A DNA stretch of 64,000 bases from positions 1,726,001 through 1,790,000 of the forward strand of contig NZ_CP128650.1 of assembly GCF_030644225.1 (NCBI RefSeq), given 5' to 3'. The position numbers were made by a program, and so were the translations under genes. This DNA is from Selenomonas dianae (GTDB lineage: Bacteria; Bacillota; Negativicutes; Selenomonadales; Selenomonadaceae). Below the pieces are notes generated by a model, which did not search any database, was not told the origin of the DNA, and saw only the letters and a program-made list of their open reading frames with translations. This document shows, piece after piece, positions 24,328 to 30,269 of the stretch (position 1 is the first letter of the stretch; every line of letters starts with the position of its first letter).

Positions 24328-25326
24328 TCACTTGACCGGCGGTGTCGGGTGCTTTTCATCCGTCTTGCCCGATGCACTGATGGCGTGGCGCATATCTGTA
24401 TCGGACTGAATATTGTTCAGCTGGTAGTAGTCCATCACGCCGAGTTTTCCCTCACGCAGCGCCTGTGCCATCGCGTGCGGCACCTCCGCCTGCGCCTCGA
24501 CCACCTTTGCCTCCATCTCCTGCGTGTACGCCTTCATCTCCTGCTCGCGTGCAACCGCCATGGCGCGGCGTTCCTCCGCCTTTGCCTGTGCAATGCGCTT
24601 GTCCGCCTCCGCCTGATCGGTCTGGAGCTCCGCGCCGATGTTGCGCCCGACATCCACGTCCGCAATATCAATGGAAAGAATCTCAAACGCCGTCCCTGCA
24701 TCAAGCCCCTTGCCAAGTACTGTCTTTGAAATGTCGTCCGGATTTGCAAGCACATCCGTATGGCTCTGCGAGGATCCGACCGTCGTGACAATACCCTCAC
24801 CGACACGAGCAATGATCGTCGGCTCGCCCGCACCGCCGACAAGACGGTCAATGTTCGCACGCACCGTAACACGCGCCTTGATTTTAAGCTCAATACCGTT
24901 CGCCGCGACGGCAGACACAATCGGCGTCTCAATCACCTTTGGATTGACACTCATCTGCACCGCATCGAGCACATCACGTCCCGCGAGATCAATCGCCGCC
25001 GCACGCTCAAACGGCAAGGCAATCTGTGCGCGATGCGAAGCGATCAGCGCATCGACCACCTTGTCCACGTTGCCGCCCGCAAGATAATGCGCCTCAAGCT
25101 GATTGACACCCACATCCAATCCCGCCTTGTTCGCCTTAATCAGCGGCAGCACAATCCGACTGGGTGGAACGCGGCGCAGCCGCATACCGATGAGCGAGAT
25201 AATACTCACCGAAACATTTGCCGAAATCGCAGATACCCACAGCCCAATCGGCACAAAATGCAAAAAAATCGACACTGCAAGAATGACGACAATAACGAGG
25301 AATGCTCCCCCGAACAGAGTACCCAT
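24328..25326 (-). CDS. floA: Flotillin-like protein FloA
   Basis: FloA organises membrane microdomains in Firmicutes. The 332-aa protein has an N-terminal hairpin membrane region (about 5-50), an SPFH/PHB domain ([20 protein letters not shown] onward) and a C-terminal helical part with [17 protein letters not shown] repeats. It follows nfeD by 28 bases; the NfeD-flotillin pairing is standard. Confidence 0.94.
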
Positions 25327-25354
25327 AAAAACCTCCTATCATAAATTCAAAAAT

Positions 25355-25987
25355 CTACATCTCACGAACAACAACACGGCTGCCGTTCACGGACAGAACA
25401 ACAACGCTTTTCCCTTTGGAGATAAACGCCCCTTCCGAGATCACATCCACGGGGCGGCCGTCGATCCGTGCCGTCCCCGACGGGCGCAGTTCTGTGAGCA
25501 CCTCGCCCGATTTCCCTACAAGATCCGACTGCTCCGCCGCGCTCACATAGCCCTCCTCCGTGCGCGAGCTCTTTTGCAGAACAATCTTATTCCAGAGCCT
25601 GCTCGACGGCAGACGCGAAACAATGAGCAAAAAGAGGGCAACAGAAATGACAAGTGCAATCCCAAGCGCCGCAAGCGCACCAATATCCCCGCCGAGAGCC
25701 AGCACAATGCTGTAGAGCATCGCTGCAACGCCAAGCCCGGCAAGCAGCCCCACCGTCGGCAGCAGGATCTCCACAATAATCATCAGAACGCCCGCAAGAA
25801 AGACCGCGATATGATAGAGCTCCACGAGCCCCTGCGTATACTGACTGCCCCAGAACACCGCTGCCGCGACAATGCCAAGCAGCACCCCCACACCGAGACC
25901 GCCCGTCTTGATCTCCACCATGATGGAGAGAAACATAACGGCAAGTAAGAGAACTTGCAGGACAGAATTATCTACGATCAGGTTCAC
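25355..25987 (-). CDS. NfeD-family membrane protein (short form)
   Basis: The 210-aa protein has four or five hydrophobic helices (about 10-125) and a C-terminal OB-fold NfeD domain (about 150-210; VGKSGEVLTELRPSGTARIDG). The ClpP-like protease domain of long NfeD proteins is absent. I chose GTG at 25987 because GAGGAGG lies six bases upstream; the longer reading to 26002 contains that site. It precedes floA, its usual partner. No clear promoter is visible upstream, where the tRNA fragment lies. Confidence 0.85.
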   Translation of the reverse strand: MNLIVDNSVLQVLLLAVMFLSIMVEIKTGGLGVGVLLGIVAAAVFWGSQYTQGLVELYHIAVFLAGVLMIIVEILLPTVGLLAGLGVAAMLYSIVLALGGDIGALAALGIALVISVALFLLIVSRLPSSRLWNKIVLQKSSRTEEGYVSAAEQSDLVGKSGEVLTELRPSGTARIDGRPVDVISEGAFISKGKSVVVLSVNGSRVVVREM

Positions 25988-26049
25988 AAAATCCCTCCTC
26001 ACTCACGCGAAAATCCTCCGTACTCCCGCACGGAAATCCCTATGCCGAA

Positions 26050-26096
26050 AATGATCGGAATAACGGGATTCGAACGCACGACCTCTTCCACCTCAA
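26050..26096 (-). pseudogene. Decayed 3' fragment of a tRNA-Pro gene
   Basis: This stretch matches the 3' end of the intact tRNA-Pro at 27368 at about 40 of 47 positions, from the anticodon loop through the T-arm to the CCA end (here TCA). The match stops in the anticodon loop, and there is no 5' half. Both copies lie on the minus strand 1.3 kb apart. This is the pattern left by an element that integrates at a tRNA 3' end, but the sequence divergence shows it is old or imported. Confidence 0.7.
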
Positions 26097-26164
26097 AACG
26101 CGCCGAAAACCTAAATGAAGCAACTGCAATCAATAGGACGCACACATTAACAACTCTTTCTATA

Positions 26165-26189
26165 CCTCTCAAGAGTACATTTTGAGGGG
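26165..26189. repeat. Inverted repeat downstream of the toxin gene
   Basis: CCTCTCAA and TTGAGGGG can pair over 8 bp (one G-U) around a 9-base loop, about 50 bases after the YoeB stop. It may be a weak terminator; no T-run follows. Confidence 0.4.
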
Positions 26190-26237
26190 CTTATAAAGCG
26201 TTGCTCATATCGTGGCCTTAACCCGCCCTGCAAGAAC

Positions 26238-26501
26238 TTATGTATCCCCATAATGCGCCCCACACTGAGCGATTTCTATGACATCATCCGTAATCTGAAA
26301 GATAAGCCTATTTTTAGAATCAATACGCACACTATAAAAGCCTGTCCAATTCCCACGCAAAGCCTCCGGCTTTCCCGTACAGTTATACCCGTTACGGTCA
26401 ATATCCCGCAAAAGAGCGTTTATTTTCTTTAGCGTTTTCTTGTCCTTCGTCTGCCACTCTATATATTCCTCCCATGCCTCATCATGCCATATCTTTTGCA
26501 C
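26238..26501 (-). CDS. yoeB: YoeB/Txe-family mRNA interferase toxin
   Basis: YoeB cleaves mRNA in the ribosomal A site during stress. From GTG at 26501 the protein has 87 aa and keeps the catalytic residues at the same numbers as E. coli YoeB: E46 (KPEAL), R65 (NRLIF), H83 and Y84 (AHY). I chose this start because GAGG lies six bases upstream and the family begins just before the KIWHDEAW motif. It starts one base after the antitoxin stop. Confidence 0.9.
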   Translation of the reverse strand: MQKIWHDEAWEEYIEWQTKDKKTLKKINALLRDIDRNGYNCTGKPEALRGNWTGFYSVRIDSKNRLIFQITDDVIEIAQCGAHYGDT

Positions 26502-26502
26502 A

Positions 26503-26754
26503 TCACACCTCAATCAACTCATGCGCTGCCACATTTCTACCCGCCCTTATATCTGCGATACGCCTGTCAAGAACGGCAATATTTTCCCGCGAGTAAAATG
26601 GATCCGCAGACACATCAAACGGGATACGCCCTTCACGCCCCAATCGTTTGAGATAAATATTAATCGCGGTAGATACGGACATCCCAATATCCTCACAAAC
26701 CTGCTCCGCATTTCTTTTCACATCGTCCGAAATTCGTACACTAAGCTGTGCCAT
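26503..26754 (-). CDS. RelB/DinJ-family antitoxin
   Basis: The 83-aa protein starts MAQLSVRISDDVKRNAEQVC, a ribbon-helix-helix DNA-binding domain of the RelB/DinJ type, and its charged C-terminus would wrap the toxin. ATG at 26754 has GGGAG eight bases upstream. It forms an operon with yoeB and, as is known for the family, probably represses its own promoter. Confidence 0.88.
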   Translation of the reverse strand: MAQLSVRISDDVKRNAEQVCEDIGMSVSTAINIYLKRLGREGRIPFDVSADPFYSRENIAVLDRRIADIRAGRNVAAHELIEV

Positions 26755-26804
26755 GGTATCAACTCCCTTCTAAACGGTTTCATTGTAGCACACAAGGCAT
26801 TACT

Positions 26805-26832
26805 TGTATAGCAAACGCAGCGTATTTTTCAA
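26805..26832 (-). promoter_or_regulatory. Likely promoter of the antitoxin-toxin operon
   Basis: On the minus strand -35 TTGAAA (26832-26827), a 16-base spacer and -10 TATACA (26810-26805) lie about 50 bases before the antitoxin start. A second -10-like TACAAT lies closer to the gene. Confidence 0.5.
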
Positions 26833-26864
26833 GACTTTATCAACACTGAATTTTGCAAAATATT

Positions 26865-26938
26865 TGTGAGCAGGTATATATTTTCCCCGTGTGTGTCATT
26901 TCCCCGTGCCACCATCCGCGTAGGCGCTGTGAGCAGGT
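26865..26938 (+). repeat. Short direct repeats in the islet
   Basis: TGTGAGCAGGT occurs at 26865-26875 and again at 26928-26938. Between them TTTCCCCGTG occurs twice (from about 26882 and 26899). This stretch between the two toxin loci holds no gene. The repeats may be remnants or binding sites; I cannot say which. Confidence 0.45.
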
Positions 26939-27005
26939 GTAGGGGGACACATCCCTACCATTCATTTCACAGAGAGCAGACACATAGCAAGACAACGCCG
27001 CCCAC

Positions 27006-27034
27006 TTGCGCTTTTCATTCTACACCTGTATAAT
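27006..27034 (+). promoter_or_regulatory. Promoter of the type I toxin mRNA
   Basis: -35 TTGCGC (27006-27011), a 17-base spacer and a perfect -10 TATAAT (27029-27034). The transcript would start near 27041, exactly at the left arm of a long inverted repeat. Confidence 0.8.
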
Positions 27035-27107
27035 GCAAAAGAACCCCTATAGGCACAGGCGGCTACTTCTTCATCTCTCCAACTCTATAAAGGGGAGGTG
27101 ATGCAAC

Positions 27108-27179
27108 ATGAGTTATTACGAGTTCATCCTAATTCTGGTGCTCGTCACAGGCTTCATCGTTGCCATAAAAAAGAAATAA
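27108..27179 (+). CDS. Small hydrophobic peptide, putative type I toxin
   Basis: The 23-residue peptide has a polar start (MSYYE), one hydrophobic span of about 15 residues (FILILVLVTGFIVAI) and a KKK end, like the holin-like toxins of Firmicutes (TxpA/Fst type). ATG at 27108 follows GGGGAGGTG. The mRNA would run from about 27041 to about 27255. Its 5' region (27044-27072) is complementary to its 3' region (27223-27246) over 24 bp with one bulge, which would block translation in the full-length RNA, as in other type I systems. A convergent antisense RNA overlaps the 3' half. Confidence 0.75.
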   Translation: MSYYEFILILVLVTGFIVAIKKK

Positions 27180-27259
27180 CCGCCCTACTTTGACACGGTA
27201 AGCGGTTATTCCGTCTTCTTGTGAAGGAGTAGCCGCCCTATAGGGGCTTTCCCTTTTGT
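27165..27259 (-). ncRNA. Putative antisense RNA antitoxin
   Basis: A promoter at 27294-27266 would start an RNA near 27259 that reads back over the toxin 3' UTR and ends at the stem-loop 27175-27210, followed on this strand by TTTCTTTTTT. The RNA would be about 95 nt and complementary to the last 80 or so bases of the toxin mRNA, the same layout as Bacillus txpA/RatA. This is inferred from promoter and terminator only. Confidence 0.65.
27175..27210 (-). terminator. Stem-loop ending the antisense RNA
   Basis: AATAACCGC (27175-27183) and GCGGTTATT (27202-27210) form a perfect 9-bp stem. On the minus strand it is followed by a T-rich tract. It overlaps the last codons of the toxin gene. Confidence 0.8.
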
Positions 27260-27265
27260 GTTCCC

Positions 27266-27294
27266 ATCATAGCAGAAACAGCATATTTTTTCAA
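27266..27294 (-). promoter_or_regulatory. Promoter of the antisense RNA
   Basis: On the minus strand -35 TTGAAA (27294-27289), 17-base spacer, -10 TATGAT (27271-27266). It is as strong as or stronger than the toxin promoter, as expected for a type I antitoxin. Confidence 0.75.
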
Positions 27295-27305
27295 GGCAGA
27301 CAAAC

Positions 27306-27344
27306 AAAAAAATGGAGCTTTCAGTATGCGACACTGAAAACCCC
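27306..27344 (-). terminator. Terminator after tRNA-Pro
   Basis: On the minus strand GGGGTTTTCAGT pairs with ACTGAAAGCTCC over 12 bp (two G-U) around GTCGCAT, followed by ATTTTTTT. It lies 24 bases after the tRNA 3' end. Confidence 0.85.
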
Positions 27345-27367
27345 GAAAGCCTTTTAACTCTAAGTAA

Positions 27368-27444
27368 TGGTCGGAACGACGAGATTTGAACTCACGACCT
27401 CTTCCACCCCAAGGAAGCGCTCTACCAAGCTGAGCTACGTCCCG
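27368..27444 (-). tRNA. tRNA-Pro (anticodon GGG)
   Basis: A complete cloverleaf of 77 nt. The acceptor CGGGACG pairs with CGTTCCG, followed by A and an encoded CCA. The D-arm is TAGCTCAGCTTGGTAGAGCG, the anticodon stem CTTCC/GGAAG with loop TTGGGGT, and the T-loop TTCAAAT. It lies 35 bases after the last gene of flagellar cluster B on the same strand. Confidence 0.95.
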
Positions 27445-27479
27445 AACAAAAGGTATTATACCGATATTTTCCCCTTTTG

Positions 27480-28286
27480 TCAATCCCTTTGTGTCATTTG
27501 CTTCATGAGGCGAAGTGCACCGATTTCGACACCTGTTTCACGTGCGACTTGCTCAATCGTGCGGCCTGCACGGAGAAGGGCGCGTGCCTTGATGATGGTT
27601 TCATCTTCTCGTACCGGCTGTTCTTCCGCTGCGGAGCGTTCCATCGGATGCGCAGGGGGCGGGACAGGCATTGCTGTGGTTGTTCCATGCGCCTGCGGAT
27701 AGTGGGGCTGCACACGTTCCTGTGGCATCCCTGCCCGCCTCCGAACAAGCGGCGACTGCATCTCCTGTACCATTGATCCGAGCTGCGGGGTCTGCACATA
27801 GACTTGCTGCACAGGTGCCGCACTTGTACGTTCATGTTCACGCAAAATCGACTGATGCAGCACGGCGGCAAATTCATCGCCGTCGGTACGGCGTGCCTCC
27901 GTCACCGGCAGCGGGGCGGGCTGACCTTCCCGCACAGCAACAGGAGCAGAAGACAGCGGCTGCCCCATATCGCGGAGACGACGCTCCAGTTCCTCAATGC
28001 GCTGACGCAGCGCCCACTCCAGACGCTGTGCATCCGCAACGCGCGTTTCAAGGCGCACACGGCGATCATCCGCCTCGCGCAGAAGTCCCTCCAATTTCGT
28101 CACATGAGAGCCGAGCCGTTTGATGATGGTATCGGCGGACTGCTGGAGTTCTTTTTTTAACTTCTCTATGGATGTCGCCAGATCTTCATCCTCTTCCTCG
28201 CTGCGCTGACGTCGGTGGATGATGTACCGCACGATGAGCAGCAGAACAGCGCCGAGGATGATAAGTGCGCCCAAAATTTCGGTCAC
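27480..28286 (-). CDS. Membrane coiled-coil protein, DUF6115/SwrB-like
   Basis: The 268-aa protein has one N-terminal membrane helix (about 4-22), a charged coiled coil (about 30-110), a Pro/Gln-rich middle and a C-terminal helix-turn-helix-like segment (KARALLRAGRTIEQVARETG, about 233-252). This layout and the place at the end of the fla/che operon after the sigma-28 gene match SwrB of Bacillus, which activates flagellar export. Sequence similarity to SwrB is not obvious by eye, so the link rests on architecture and position. Confidence 0.6.
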   Translation of the reverse strand: MTEILGALIILGAVLLLIVRYIIHRRQRSEEEDEDLATSIEKLKKELQQSADTIIKRLGSHVTKLEGLLREADDRRVRLETRVADAQRLEWALRQRIEELERRLRDMGQPLSSAPVAVREGQPAPLPVTEARRTDGDEFAAVLHQSILREHERTSAAPVQQVYVQTPQLGSMVQEMQSPLVRRRAGMPQERVQPHYPQAHGTTTAMPVPPPAHPMERSAAEEQPVREDETIIKARALLRAGRTIEQVARETGVEIGALRLMKQMTQRD

Positions 28287-28317
28287 AGAAATAATGACAG
28301 GAAGCCTCCTTTAGGCA

Positions 28318-28653
28318 TCATAGGCTGATGTCGAGATGAACGCCGCGATTCGGATCTCTGGCAAGTCGCTGCAGAAGTTCGAGGCCGCGATCCTGCGTGT
28401 CGCCTCTGCGGCTCTCTCCGCCATTGCCGCGCCCCTGTCTGCGTTCACGCTCGGGATCGTCCTTCACGCGTGAATCCTCGCTCGCCTGTTCCTTGGCGCG
28501 TACCTGCTGTCGTGCAAGCTCCGCATCCTGTTTCTGTCGAACGGATTCAAAGCTCTGCTGGATGTTGACCTGATTCTGCATATTGCTCTGAACGTTTCCC
28601 GCCTCGTTGGACTGCGGGAACATCATCTGCATACTGATTGGCGTGACATTCAT
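28318..28653 (-). CDS. Small protein of unknown function in the flagellar operon
   Basis: The 110-aa protein from ATG 28653 is hydrophilic, rich in Gln and Met at the start (MNVTPISMQMMF) and in Arg, Glu and Gly from residue 50 on. It has no membrane span and is probably partly disordered. It lies between fapA and the SwrB-like gene, with short gaps on both sides. No family recognised. Confidence 0.6.
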   Translation of the reverse strand: MNVTPISMQMMFPQSNEAGNVQSNMQNQVNIQQSFESVRQKQDAELARQQVRAKEQASEDSRVKDDPERERRQGRGNGGESRRGDTQDRGLELLQRLARDPNRGVHLDISL

Positions 28654-28670
28654 GACGAACCTGCCTCTCT

Positions 28671-30269
28671 TCAAAGAACTCCTACGGCAATTTTCCCATC
28701 CAAAACGCGGAGGCTTGCATGATGCAGTACCTCCTCCACCGATTTTTTCACGCCGTTGATCGTTGCATTGACCCCGGGGTAAATCACATCAGATGCAGCG
28801 ACACTCCCCTTCTGCATCTGTTCCAGTTCCTCCTGCATCCGATTGAGGTCTTCCTGCATTTCCTTAATCTTACAGGCAAGAGGGAACTGTTCATGTGTCA
28901 TCTCCACAAGCTGCTCCCTGCGCCGCTCAGACAGGCTCATGAGCGGTTTTTTCTTAAGTGTCGCAAGGGAGAAACGCACCTCGGTCAGTCGTTTGATTGC
29001 CGTCTGACACTCCTTGAACAGGGTATCATAGCGGTGTTTCAAGTTCGGATCGACACCGACATCCAGATTGGTCTGCACATAAAAGGTATTGCCAAAAATC
29101 TTGGCCCGAATGGATTCCCCCGCGCCAACGTTGCCGCCGGTGATGATACCACGCCGTCCCTCGACGAGAACGTGATGCCCCGCACGGATCTCCGAATGCA
29201 AAATGACATCGTTGACAAATATATCGCGCCCCGCCTCGATATTGGCGTGTTCAACAAAGGAGATGCTGACATCCTCGGCGGCACGGATCTTTCCGATGTT
29301 CATGCCGCGAATGCCACCGTGAACGATAACATTTCGCCCCTCGACCTGTGCGCCGCCGATCATCCCTTGGATCTCTATATCCCCCGTCGCTTTGACGATA
29401 AATCCGCTCTCCACGTCGCCCTTGATCTCGATACTGCCGGCAAAGTCAATGTTGCCCGTTCCGACATCGACCCCGGAATCAATGACGAGATGCGGATCTA
29501 CGCTGATTTTTTTCCCTTCATCGACAATTTGACCGTCGATAAGTGCAACGAGTTCATTGGAGTTGACGATCTTTGTGTTTTTTCCCTGCGGCAGTTGTGC
29601 AGGTTTCCCCGGGCGGGGCGGTACCGCCGCCCCCAAAACGTTCGTCCCCGGCGTCCCCGGGGTTTCGGGGGTGCGCACGGCAAGTACATCCCCCGCATGT
29701 GTCTTGAGAAAGATGTTCAGATCTTTATAGTCGACGCGGTCATATGCACGCACAGCAGGACGTCCCTTGATCGACGGATCGTAGGATCTTTCAATGCGTG
29801 CGTTCTCTCCCGGAATCGCCGGCGTACCGCGCGCAGCAAGAAATGGGGTCAGACGTGCAGCACCGCGCTCGATGGCGGCGTGGTCGATGCCATAGACAAC
29901 CTCCTTCTCCGCCAGTGCCGCCAGAATGTCCGCAGCGGTAGGAGGCAGATTCCCCTTCGCATCATCGAAACGCACGGCTGCGGACATCTTGTCGCGTGCG
30001 ATCTCAATGCGAAAGGGAACAATCTTGTTCTCCTCACCGTCCTCCGGTGCCGATTCGAGCTTCTCCCGCACGCCATCCGCAGCACGCACCATGCGTGCCA
30101 CCTGAAGGAGATCATAGTCCGTGACATTCTCCTTTGCGAGGTGTTCCCGCAGCGATGTCAAATCGACGAGAGTCCGCCCTTCCTCCTCCGAATAGACGGT
30201 GAGATAGTTGCCGTCTTCTTTGATTTCCAGCAGAAATCCATCGCGCATCCCCCCAACGGTTCGATCCAC
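28671..30269 (-). CDS. fapA: FapA family protein (DUF342)
   Basis: The 532-aa protein has an N-terminal alpha/beta region, a central right-handed beta-helix (about 250-390) of repeated hexapeptide-like turns such as GDVESGFIVKATGDIEIQG, and a C-terminal coiled coil (about 420-490). FapA of Vibrio affects flagellar assembly; a general role is not settled. It starts with GTG at 30269 behind GGGAG. It follows fliA after an 82-base gap that contains the repeat at 30318. Confidence 0.85.
   Translation of the reverse strand: MDRTVGGMRDGFLLEIKEDGNYLTVYSEEEGRTLVDLTSLREHLAKENVTDYDLLQVARMVRAADGVREKLESAPEDGEENKIVPFRIEIARDKMSAAVRFDDAKGNLPPTAADILAALAEKEVVYGIDHAAIERGAARLTPFLAARGTPAIPGENARIERSYDPSIKGRPAVRAYDRVDYKDLNIFLKTHAGDVLAVRTPETPGTPGTNVLGAAVPPRPGKPAQLPQGKNTKIVNSNELVALIDGQIVDEGKKISVDPHLVIDSGVDVGTGNIDFAGSIEIKGDVESGFIVKATGDIEIQGMIGGAQVEGRNVIVHGGIRGMNIGKIRAAEDVSISFVEHANIEAGRDIFVNDVILHSEIRAGHHVLVEGRRGIITGGNVGAGESIRAKIFGNTFYVQTNLDVGVDPNLKHRYDTLFKECQTAIKRLTEVRFSLATLKKKPLMSLSERRREQLVEMTHEQFPLACKIKEMQEDLNRMQEELEQMQKGSVAASDVIYPGVNATINGVKKSVEEVLHHASLRVLDGKIAVGVL

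Follow-up and report, generated by a model that had tools for sequence, protein, structure and literature searches.

The analysed stretch of Selenomonas dianae DNA (the window, 64,000 nucleotides of a 2.39 Mb genome assembled in a single contig) very probably carries a type I toxin-antitoxin locus that would work through the mechanism proposed below. An earlier note, made from the letters of the window, had described this locus as a complete type I module, and that reading is supported by coding conservation, convergent promoters, an antisense terminator, the predicted fold of the mRNA, and related places that keep antitoxin parts where the toxin frame is broken or absent. The anatomy of the putative module (Table 1) is established by sequence and comparison, and transcription, pairing in the cell, decay by RNase III and toxicity would be expected by analogy with txpA/RatA and bsrG/SR4.

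Table 1. Parts of the putative module and of the segment around it, in positions of the window.
Feature	Position	Strand	Basis
47-bp degenerate copy of the tRNA-Pro end (40/47 identical), probable old attachment site	26050..26096		sequence comparison
YoeB-like type II toxin gene	26238..26513	-	Pfam PF06769, E 7.2e-28
RelB/DinJ-like antitoxin gene	26503..26754	-	Pfam PF04221, E 5.9e-12
Putative toxin promoter: -35 TTGCGC (27006-27011), 17 nt, -10 TATAAT (27029-27034)	27006..27034	+	sequence; TTG and TGTATAAT identical in 11 aligned copies
5' arm of the predicted long-range 5'-3' helix	27044..27070 (27044-27053 and 27059-27070)	+	predicted folds; compensatory changes
Segment predicted to pair with the ribosome site (27092-27101)	27071..27080	+	predicted folds
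Shine-Dalgarno GGGGAGG	27092..27098	+	sequence; GGAGGTG invariant in 13 sequences
Putative toxin frame, 23 residues MSYYEFILILVLVTGFIVAIKKK, hydrophobic stretch, Lys-Lys-Lys end	27108..27179	+	translation; pN/pS
Predicted antitoxin RNA, about 95-100 nt	27160..27259	-	promoter and terminator
Terminator hairpin of the antisense RNA, covering the toxin stop codon, with T-rich tail 27174-27165	27175..27210	-	sequence, conservation
3' arm of the predicted long-range helix, also target of the 5' part of the antitoxin	27225..27246	+	predicted folds, alignment
Candidate weak terminator for the toxin mRNA	27235..27257	+	terminator scan
Putative antitoxin promoter: TTGAAA (27294-27289), 17 nt, (TGc)TATGAT (TATGAT 27271-27266)	27266..27294	-	scan; conserved in 11-copy alignment; set-wide counts
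tRNA-Pro(ggg), other edge of the probable island	27368..27444	-	Rfam

The plus-strand promoter is found as the earlier note gave it, with a weak -35 box, and from it the toxin mRNA would begin near 27041 and extend to about 27255. The 23-residue frame and its good ribosome site are likewise found, the GGGGAGG motif standing 9 nt ahead of the start codon. Across 12 copies this frame has a pN/pS of 0.31, which indicates protein-level selection on a small hydrophobic peptide, and the changes relative to the window copy (58, 38 and 88 at the first, second and third codon positions) fall most often at third positions.

On the opposite strand, our scan recovers the convergent promoter that had been claimed and adds an extended -10 TG (TGcTATGAT), and the predicted start of the antisense RNA lies about 83 nt beyond the toxin stop codon. 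A lone antisense promoter match is weak evidence, because nine promoter-like sites occur in 25000-29500 where shuffles predict 3.5. The 9-bp stem-loop is present as well, formed by AATAACCGC and GCGGTTATT (27175-27183 and 27202-27210), with TCTTTTTTAT after it on the minus strand; this terminator overlaps the lysine codons and the stop codon of the toxin, and it is conserved. Since the plus strand has no T run, the hairpin would end the antisense RNA only, and a second role as terminator of the toxin mRNA is ruled out. Folded alone, the antisense stretch reaches z -3.0, with 3 of 200 shuffles equally stable. The gene for an antisense RNA over the toxin mRNA thus consists of conserved promoter and terminator sequences, the transcript itself being predicted.

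The predicted fold of 27036-27262 is far more stable than expected for its composition (-87.5 kcal/mol, compared with -56.6, sd 4.0, in shuffles; z -7.66; none of 200 shuffles reaching this stability), with the ends of the mRNA paired and the ribosome site buried. The complementarity of 24 bp between the 5' and 3' ends described in the earlier note is present, but as 22 pairs (27044-27053 and 27059-27070 with 27225-27246 in the minimum-energy fold) broken by a 5-nt bulge and not as 24 continuous pairs. Each of the 13 members of the close subfamily, when folded on its own, shows pairing between its 5' and 3' ends. Covariation is modest, with two-sided changes in 4 of the 40 pairs predicted for the 13-sequence alignment, three of them within the 5'-3' helix (16 pairs) and one in the helix that holds the start codon. 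By prediction, the toxin mRNA would be self-inhibiting through its own fold.

In DNA searches, matches to the locus occur in 38 of 100 genomes at E <=0.1, many of them covering only a short stretch around the stop codon, and in 12 of 189 genomes in the family-wide search at E <=1e-6 (the own genome included in both counts). The promoters, ribosome site, peptide, hairpin and both arms are recognisable in 11 aligned copies. Kept within the close subfamily (11- and 13-copy alignments) are TTG...TGTATAAT, a GGCGGCTAC..CTTC-like leader, the ribosome site, the frame, AAAGAAATAACCGCCC...GCGGTTA (with AAAGAAATAACCGCCC at the terminator invariant in 13 sequences), the mirror of the leader past the stop, and the antisense -10 and -35 boxes. 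Upstream, spacer and loop sequences vary, and both promoters are conserved in the 11 copies while their spacers are not. The search in other Negativicutes that the earlier note had proposed for the peptide finds the same layout there and also in Clostridia, so that the locus is part of a widespread set. Some relatives depart from the window copy in arrangement: modules stand in tandem at two loci (two copies at L010, and three within 1.2 kb at L033), and at L016 the usual in-frame stop is absent, the frame running to 32 residues, beyond the stop position of its kin.

The module lies within what is probably a small tRNA-Pro island, as judged from the tRNA gene at one edge and its degenerate copy at the other; no frame between the two edges looks like an integrase. 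The same segment holds the YoeB/RelB pair, and type I and type II modules would therefore stand side by side. In S. noxia (G003; L210 6957-11593) the same site carries a near-perfect tRNA-Pro copy (50/51), immediately inside which the module lies, together with a resolvase gene and, next to the tRNA, a tyrosine integrase gene (PF00589). Two further genomes, G010 and G012, have the module at this tRNA-Pro site, with no left tRNA copy found. The copy is unbroken in S. noxia and G010; in G012 a 1.5-kb insertion (L217 6265-7769), whose product looks like an IS3-type transposase when read from its translation, interrupts the toxin frame, and the antitoxin parts remain. No DNA match to the YoeB/RelB pair is found in any of the 12 compared loci (E 1e-5). 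We considered a joint arrival of the module with this pair, but G003, G010 and G012 have the module at the same place and no match to the pair at that threshold, so that joint transfer of the two is not required. The likely role of the module is the retention of small mobile islands such as this one, or else it is a resident left over from them. Directly upstream of the antitoxin promoter, the tRNA-Pro gene is framed by a 12/12 promoter (27483-27455, minus strand) and a 14-pair terminator (27344-27314, minus strand), and read-through from the tRNA could feed the antitoxin.

To describe the wider set, we scanned a genome collection with the exact pattern and obtained at least 123 places. Among the matches listed, 84 of the 123 show, directly upstream, a small frame with a ribosome site, though a few of these are doubtful; the remaining 39 lack such a frame, and the record titles are mostly those of Clostridia, with some Negativicutes; the window locus is one of three such places in its own genome. 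A script applied to the first 71 loci returned 52 small frames ending beside the terminator motif, of which four are plainly false (L005, L033 minus, L047 and L054). With a shorter hairpin pattern, 37 of 398 genomes of the phylum give matches, compared with 1 of 398 for the backward control, where the 37 count pattern matches regardless of frame, some strongly palindromic ones may be ordinary terminators, and the control pattern is not terminator-like. Peptides recovered through the shared DNA signature have 21 to about 40 residues, and the family models tested miss several of them. In a tblastn search with two relatives of the type that passes the Hol_Tox cut-off, matches fall on Bacilli plasmids and phages (E 3e-5 to 10), and several of these are annotated as 'putative holin-like toxin'. 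The own genome also contains a second type of short peptide (MSLYEKLSLVLAAATLVVNIIFLITK and variants), whose start resembles that of Hol_Tox, in three copies (G000:C1 115702, 137919 and 138382; L222, L223 and L199) that score under the Pfam cut-off and, by eye, are each followed by a hairpin.

For 114 loci of this set (122 less 8 with under 50% hydrophobic residues), we scored promoters on the opposite strand 60-160 nt from the stop. A 12/12 match occurs in 53 loci, while 78 loci reach 10/12 or better and 104 reach 9/12 or better, where the corresponding shuffle rates are 0.000 (rounded), 0.018 and 0.127, and the predicted antisense starts lie mostly 72-95 and 108-123 nt from the stop. Folding was restricted to the 86 of the 114 loci in which both promoters score at least 8/12 (28 dropped), with 10 or 20 shuffles per locus; all of these counts are over related loci, some from one genome, and the statistics ignore kinship. 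At least 15 pairs between the 5' and 3' ends are predicted in 82 of the 86, compared with 14.4% of shuffles, the long pairing being absent in the other 4, and the median fold z is -7.1 (10 shuffles each). Cognate 5' and 3' arms form duplexes with a median of -44.8 kcal/mol, more stable than those of mismatched arms (median -27.3 kcal/mol), although the cognate arm is the best partner in only 24 of the 86 loci and falls within the top five in 56.

Antitoxin parts also occur where no toxin frame is seen. Among the matches listed, 11 of the 39 frameless exact-pattern places lie at contig edges and 28 are interior, and an antisense promoter scoring 10/12 or better persists in 20 of these 28. Since 'no frame' means that no start codon with a ribosome-site-like motif was found 14-60 codons upstream, some of the 28 may hold an overlooked or partial frame, and a partial frame is indeed present in some frameless places. 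The scan pattern demands the antitoxin terminator, so toxins without an antitoxin are invisible to it and the count of orphans is biased in that direction. Two orphan-like loci, one in the own genome (G000:C1 102059, L004) and one in G010 (L042), have an antisense promoter (judged by eye) and a terminator, with no toxin frame seen. The predicted duplexes of the 102059 RNA with two toxin mRNAs of its own genome (-90.5 and -78.8 kcal/mol, values that are uncontrolled and ignore internal structure) offer a lead only towards pairing in trans with resident toxin mRNAs. A still broader view can be put forward tentatively, as one that we consider doubtful but worth stating: the loci may form one very large and mostly unannotated Bacillota-wide set of type I modules, with a terminator in the Lys-Lys-Lys-stop codons, a self-closing mRNA, and antitoxins that often outlive their toxins, the orphans maybe guarding the host in trans, as RNA anti-addiction, against the arrival of related modules. 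Through the shared signature, what orphan antitoxin RNAs do becomes directly testable.

In the mechanism that we propose, the toxin mRNA would encode the 23-residue hydrophobic peptide, and the full mRNA would be silent: its 5' leader would pair with its 3' end, a hairpin would sequester the ribosome site, and the start codon would be paired within the coding region. Complementary to the mRNA in its 3' part, the convergent antisense RNA (about 100 nt) would invade the 5'-3' helix and extend into a long duplex, presumably handing the mRNA over to RNase III. Were the antitoxin lost or outpaced, the mRNA would accumulate and open, or be trimmed at its 3' end, and the freed mRNA would yield the peptide, which would then damage the membrane.

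A chance origin of the arrangement is rejected by the fold z, the antisense-promoter counts, the 5'-3' pairing counts and pN/pS. We regard it as very improbable that the locus is a structured non-coding RNA or a self-spreading repeat in which the frame is incidental; the strong predicted structure, the several copies and the places without a frame would agree with this, but the low pN/pS (0.31) and the dominance of third-position changes (58/38/88) argue for a translated frame, as does the combination of frame and ribosome site in 84 of 123 exact-pattern places among the matches listed, a few of them doubtful. We give a small chance to the possibility that the locus encodes a small membrane protein without toxicity, for example a regulator or a subunit, which is tuned by an antisense RNA and involves neither addiction nor killing. 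Antisense-controlled small proteins exist, the peptide is very short, and its toxicity is expected by analogy. A toxin agrees better, however, with several dispersed copies next to a second peptide type within one genome, with tandem copies in relatives, with the position in a probable integrated island, with antitoxin parts at frameless places, and with relatives on plasmids and phages that are annotated as holin-like toxins.

A smaller chance goes to the case in which the ancestry is truly that of a toxin-antitoxin module and the window copy is a decayed, silent relic that is no longer expressed. The degenerate island edge (40/47), the apparent lack of an integrase among the frames between the edges, the weak -35 box of the toxin promoter and the broken same-site copy in G012 all fit with decay; set against them, the parts in the window are all intact, the arms still pair, and the copies at the same site in S. 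noxia and G010 are unbroken. A type I toxin-antitoxin locus is the reading that we retain.

Family searches with the peptide by itself were unproductive. The window peptide has no Pfam match, Hol_Tox (PF16935) giving none at E 10, and no match in PHROGs, and an NCBIfam match to Psb35 was rejected as chance-level. None of the 15 scanned peptides (the window peptide and 14 relatives) reaches the Hol_Tox cut-off, nor does anything in a six-frame search of 14 genomes of the genus. In Rfam, the tRNA alone reaches the gathering score, with otherwise weak and unrelated matches at E up to 10, and no TxpA/RatA-type antitoxin family matches 26900-27370 even at E 10; PADLOC gives nothing for the peptide or for its YoeB and RelB neighbours. 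Among 10 scanned peptides, two from distant Negativicutes (L022 and L024) pass the Hol_Tox cut-off and a third falls just below it. The stops of these two are followed by TAACCGC...GCGGTTA and TAACCGC...ACGGTTA, and the layout is nearly the same as at the window locus, so that the window peptide is linked to Hol_Tox through intermediate relatives with the same gene layout. Profile-profile comparison of the window group with Hol_Tox gives a probability of 82% (E 1.1e-5), which for a short hydrophobic sequence is weak by itself. The likeness to Hol_Tox lies in an M-x-x-Y-E start in part of the members, the hydrophobic stretch and the lysine end. An annotated Hol_Tox member on an Enterococcus plasmid (L208) resembles the window locus in its predicted 5'-3' pairing and in the hairpin that lies at its stop, but on the antisense strand its promoter scores no better than 8/12, and a phage member (L209) differs in having no TAACCGC letters at the stop.

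Silencing of a full mRNA by pairing of its 5' and 3' ends is known from AapA1/IsoA1 of Helicobacter and from Hok/Sok, in which the position of the antisense RNA and the sequences differ from those of the window locus. Our search of titles and abstract openings in the open-access literature found no earlier report of a type I module in Negativicutes. Inactive full-length toxin mRNAs appear as a general idea in PMC11228461. In Clostridium difficile, type I modules are often prophage-borne, and CD2517.1-RCd8 and similar pairs share with our locus the convergent toxin and antisense RNA, the small membrane peptide and the lysine-rich end, with toxins of 34-53 residues compared with 23 here (a comparison by description, from parts of PMC6563280). 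With TxpA/RatA and BsrG/SR4, compared by layout and not by sequence, the window locus shares convergent genes, a predicted overlap at the 3' ends and a small hydrophobic peptide; according to PMC7430163, the peptide of BsrG has 38 residues (23 here), SR4 has 180 nt (about 100 nt predicted here), and the antitoxin promoter is the stronger one in bsrG/SR4. The ribosome site is buried in the Bacillus subtilis txpA, bsrE and bsrG mRNAs (portions of PMC6562991 and PMC3531473), and txpA mRNA has a long-range helix, with RNase III cleavage at nt 96-98 and 218-220 (PMC3531473). The earlier comparison with txpA/RatA is borne out, as the convergent arrangement, the predicted 3' overlap and the buried ribosome site agree with PMC6562991 and PMC3531473, and the principle of a 5'-3' lock is not new, because the folds predicted for our set fit the txpA helix and the buried sites of txpA, bsrE and bsrG. 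From its layout and its intermediates, the window locus is a putative divergent new member of the TxpA/Hol_Tox-like kind and, as far as sequence can tell, it would operate like txpA/RatA.
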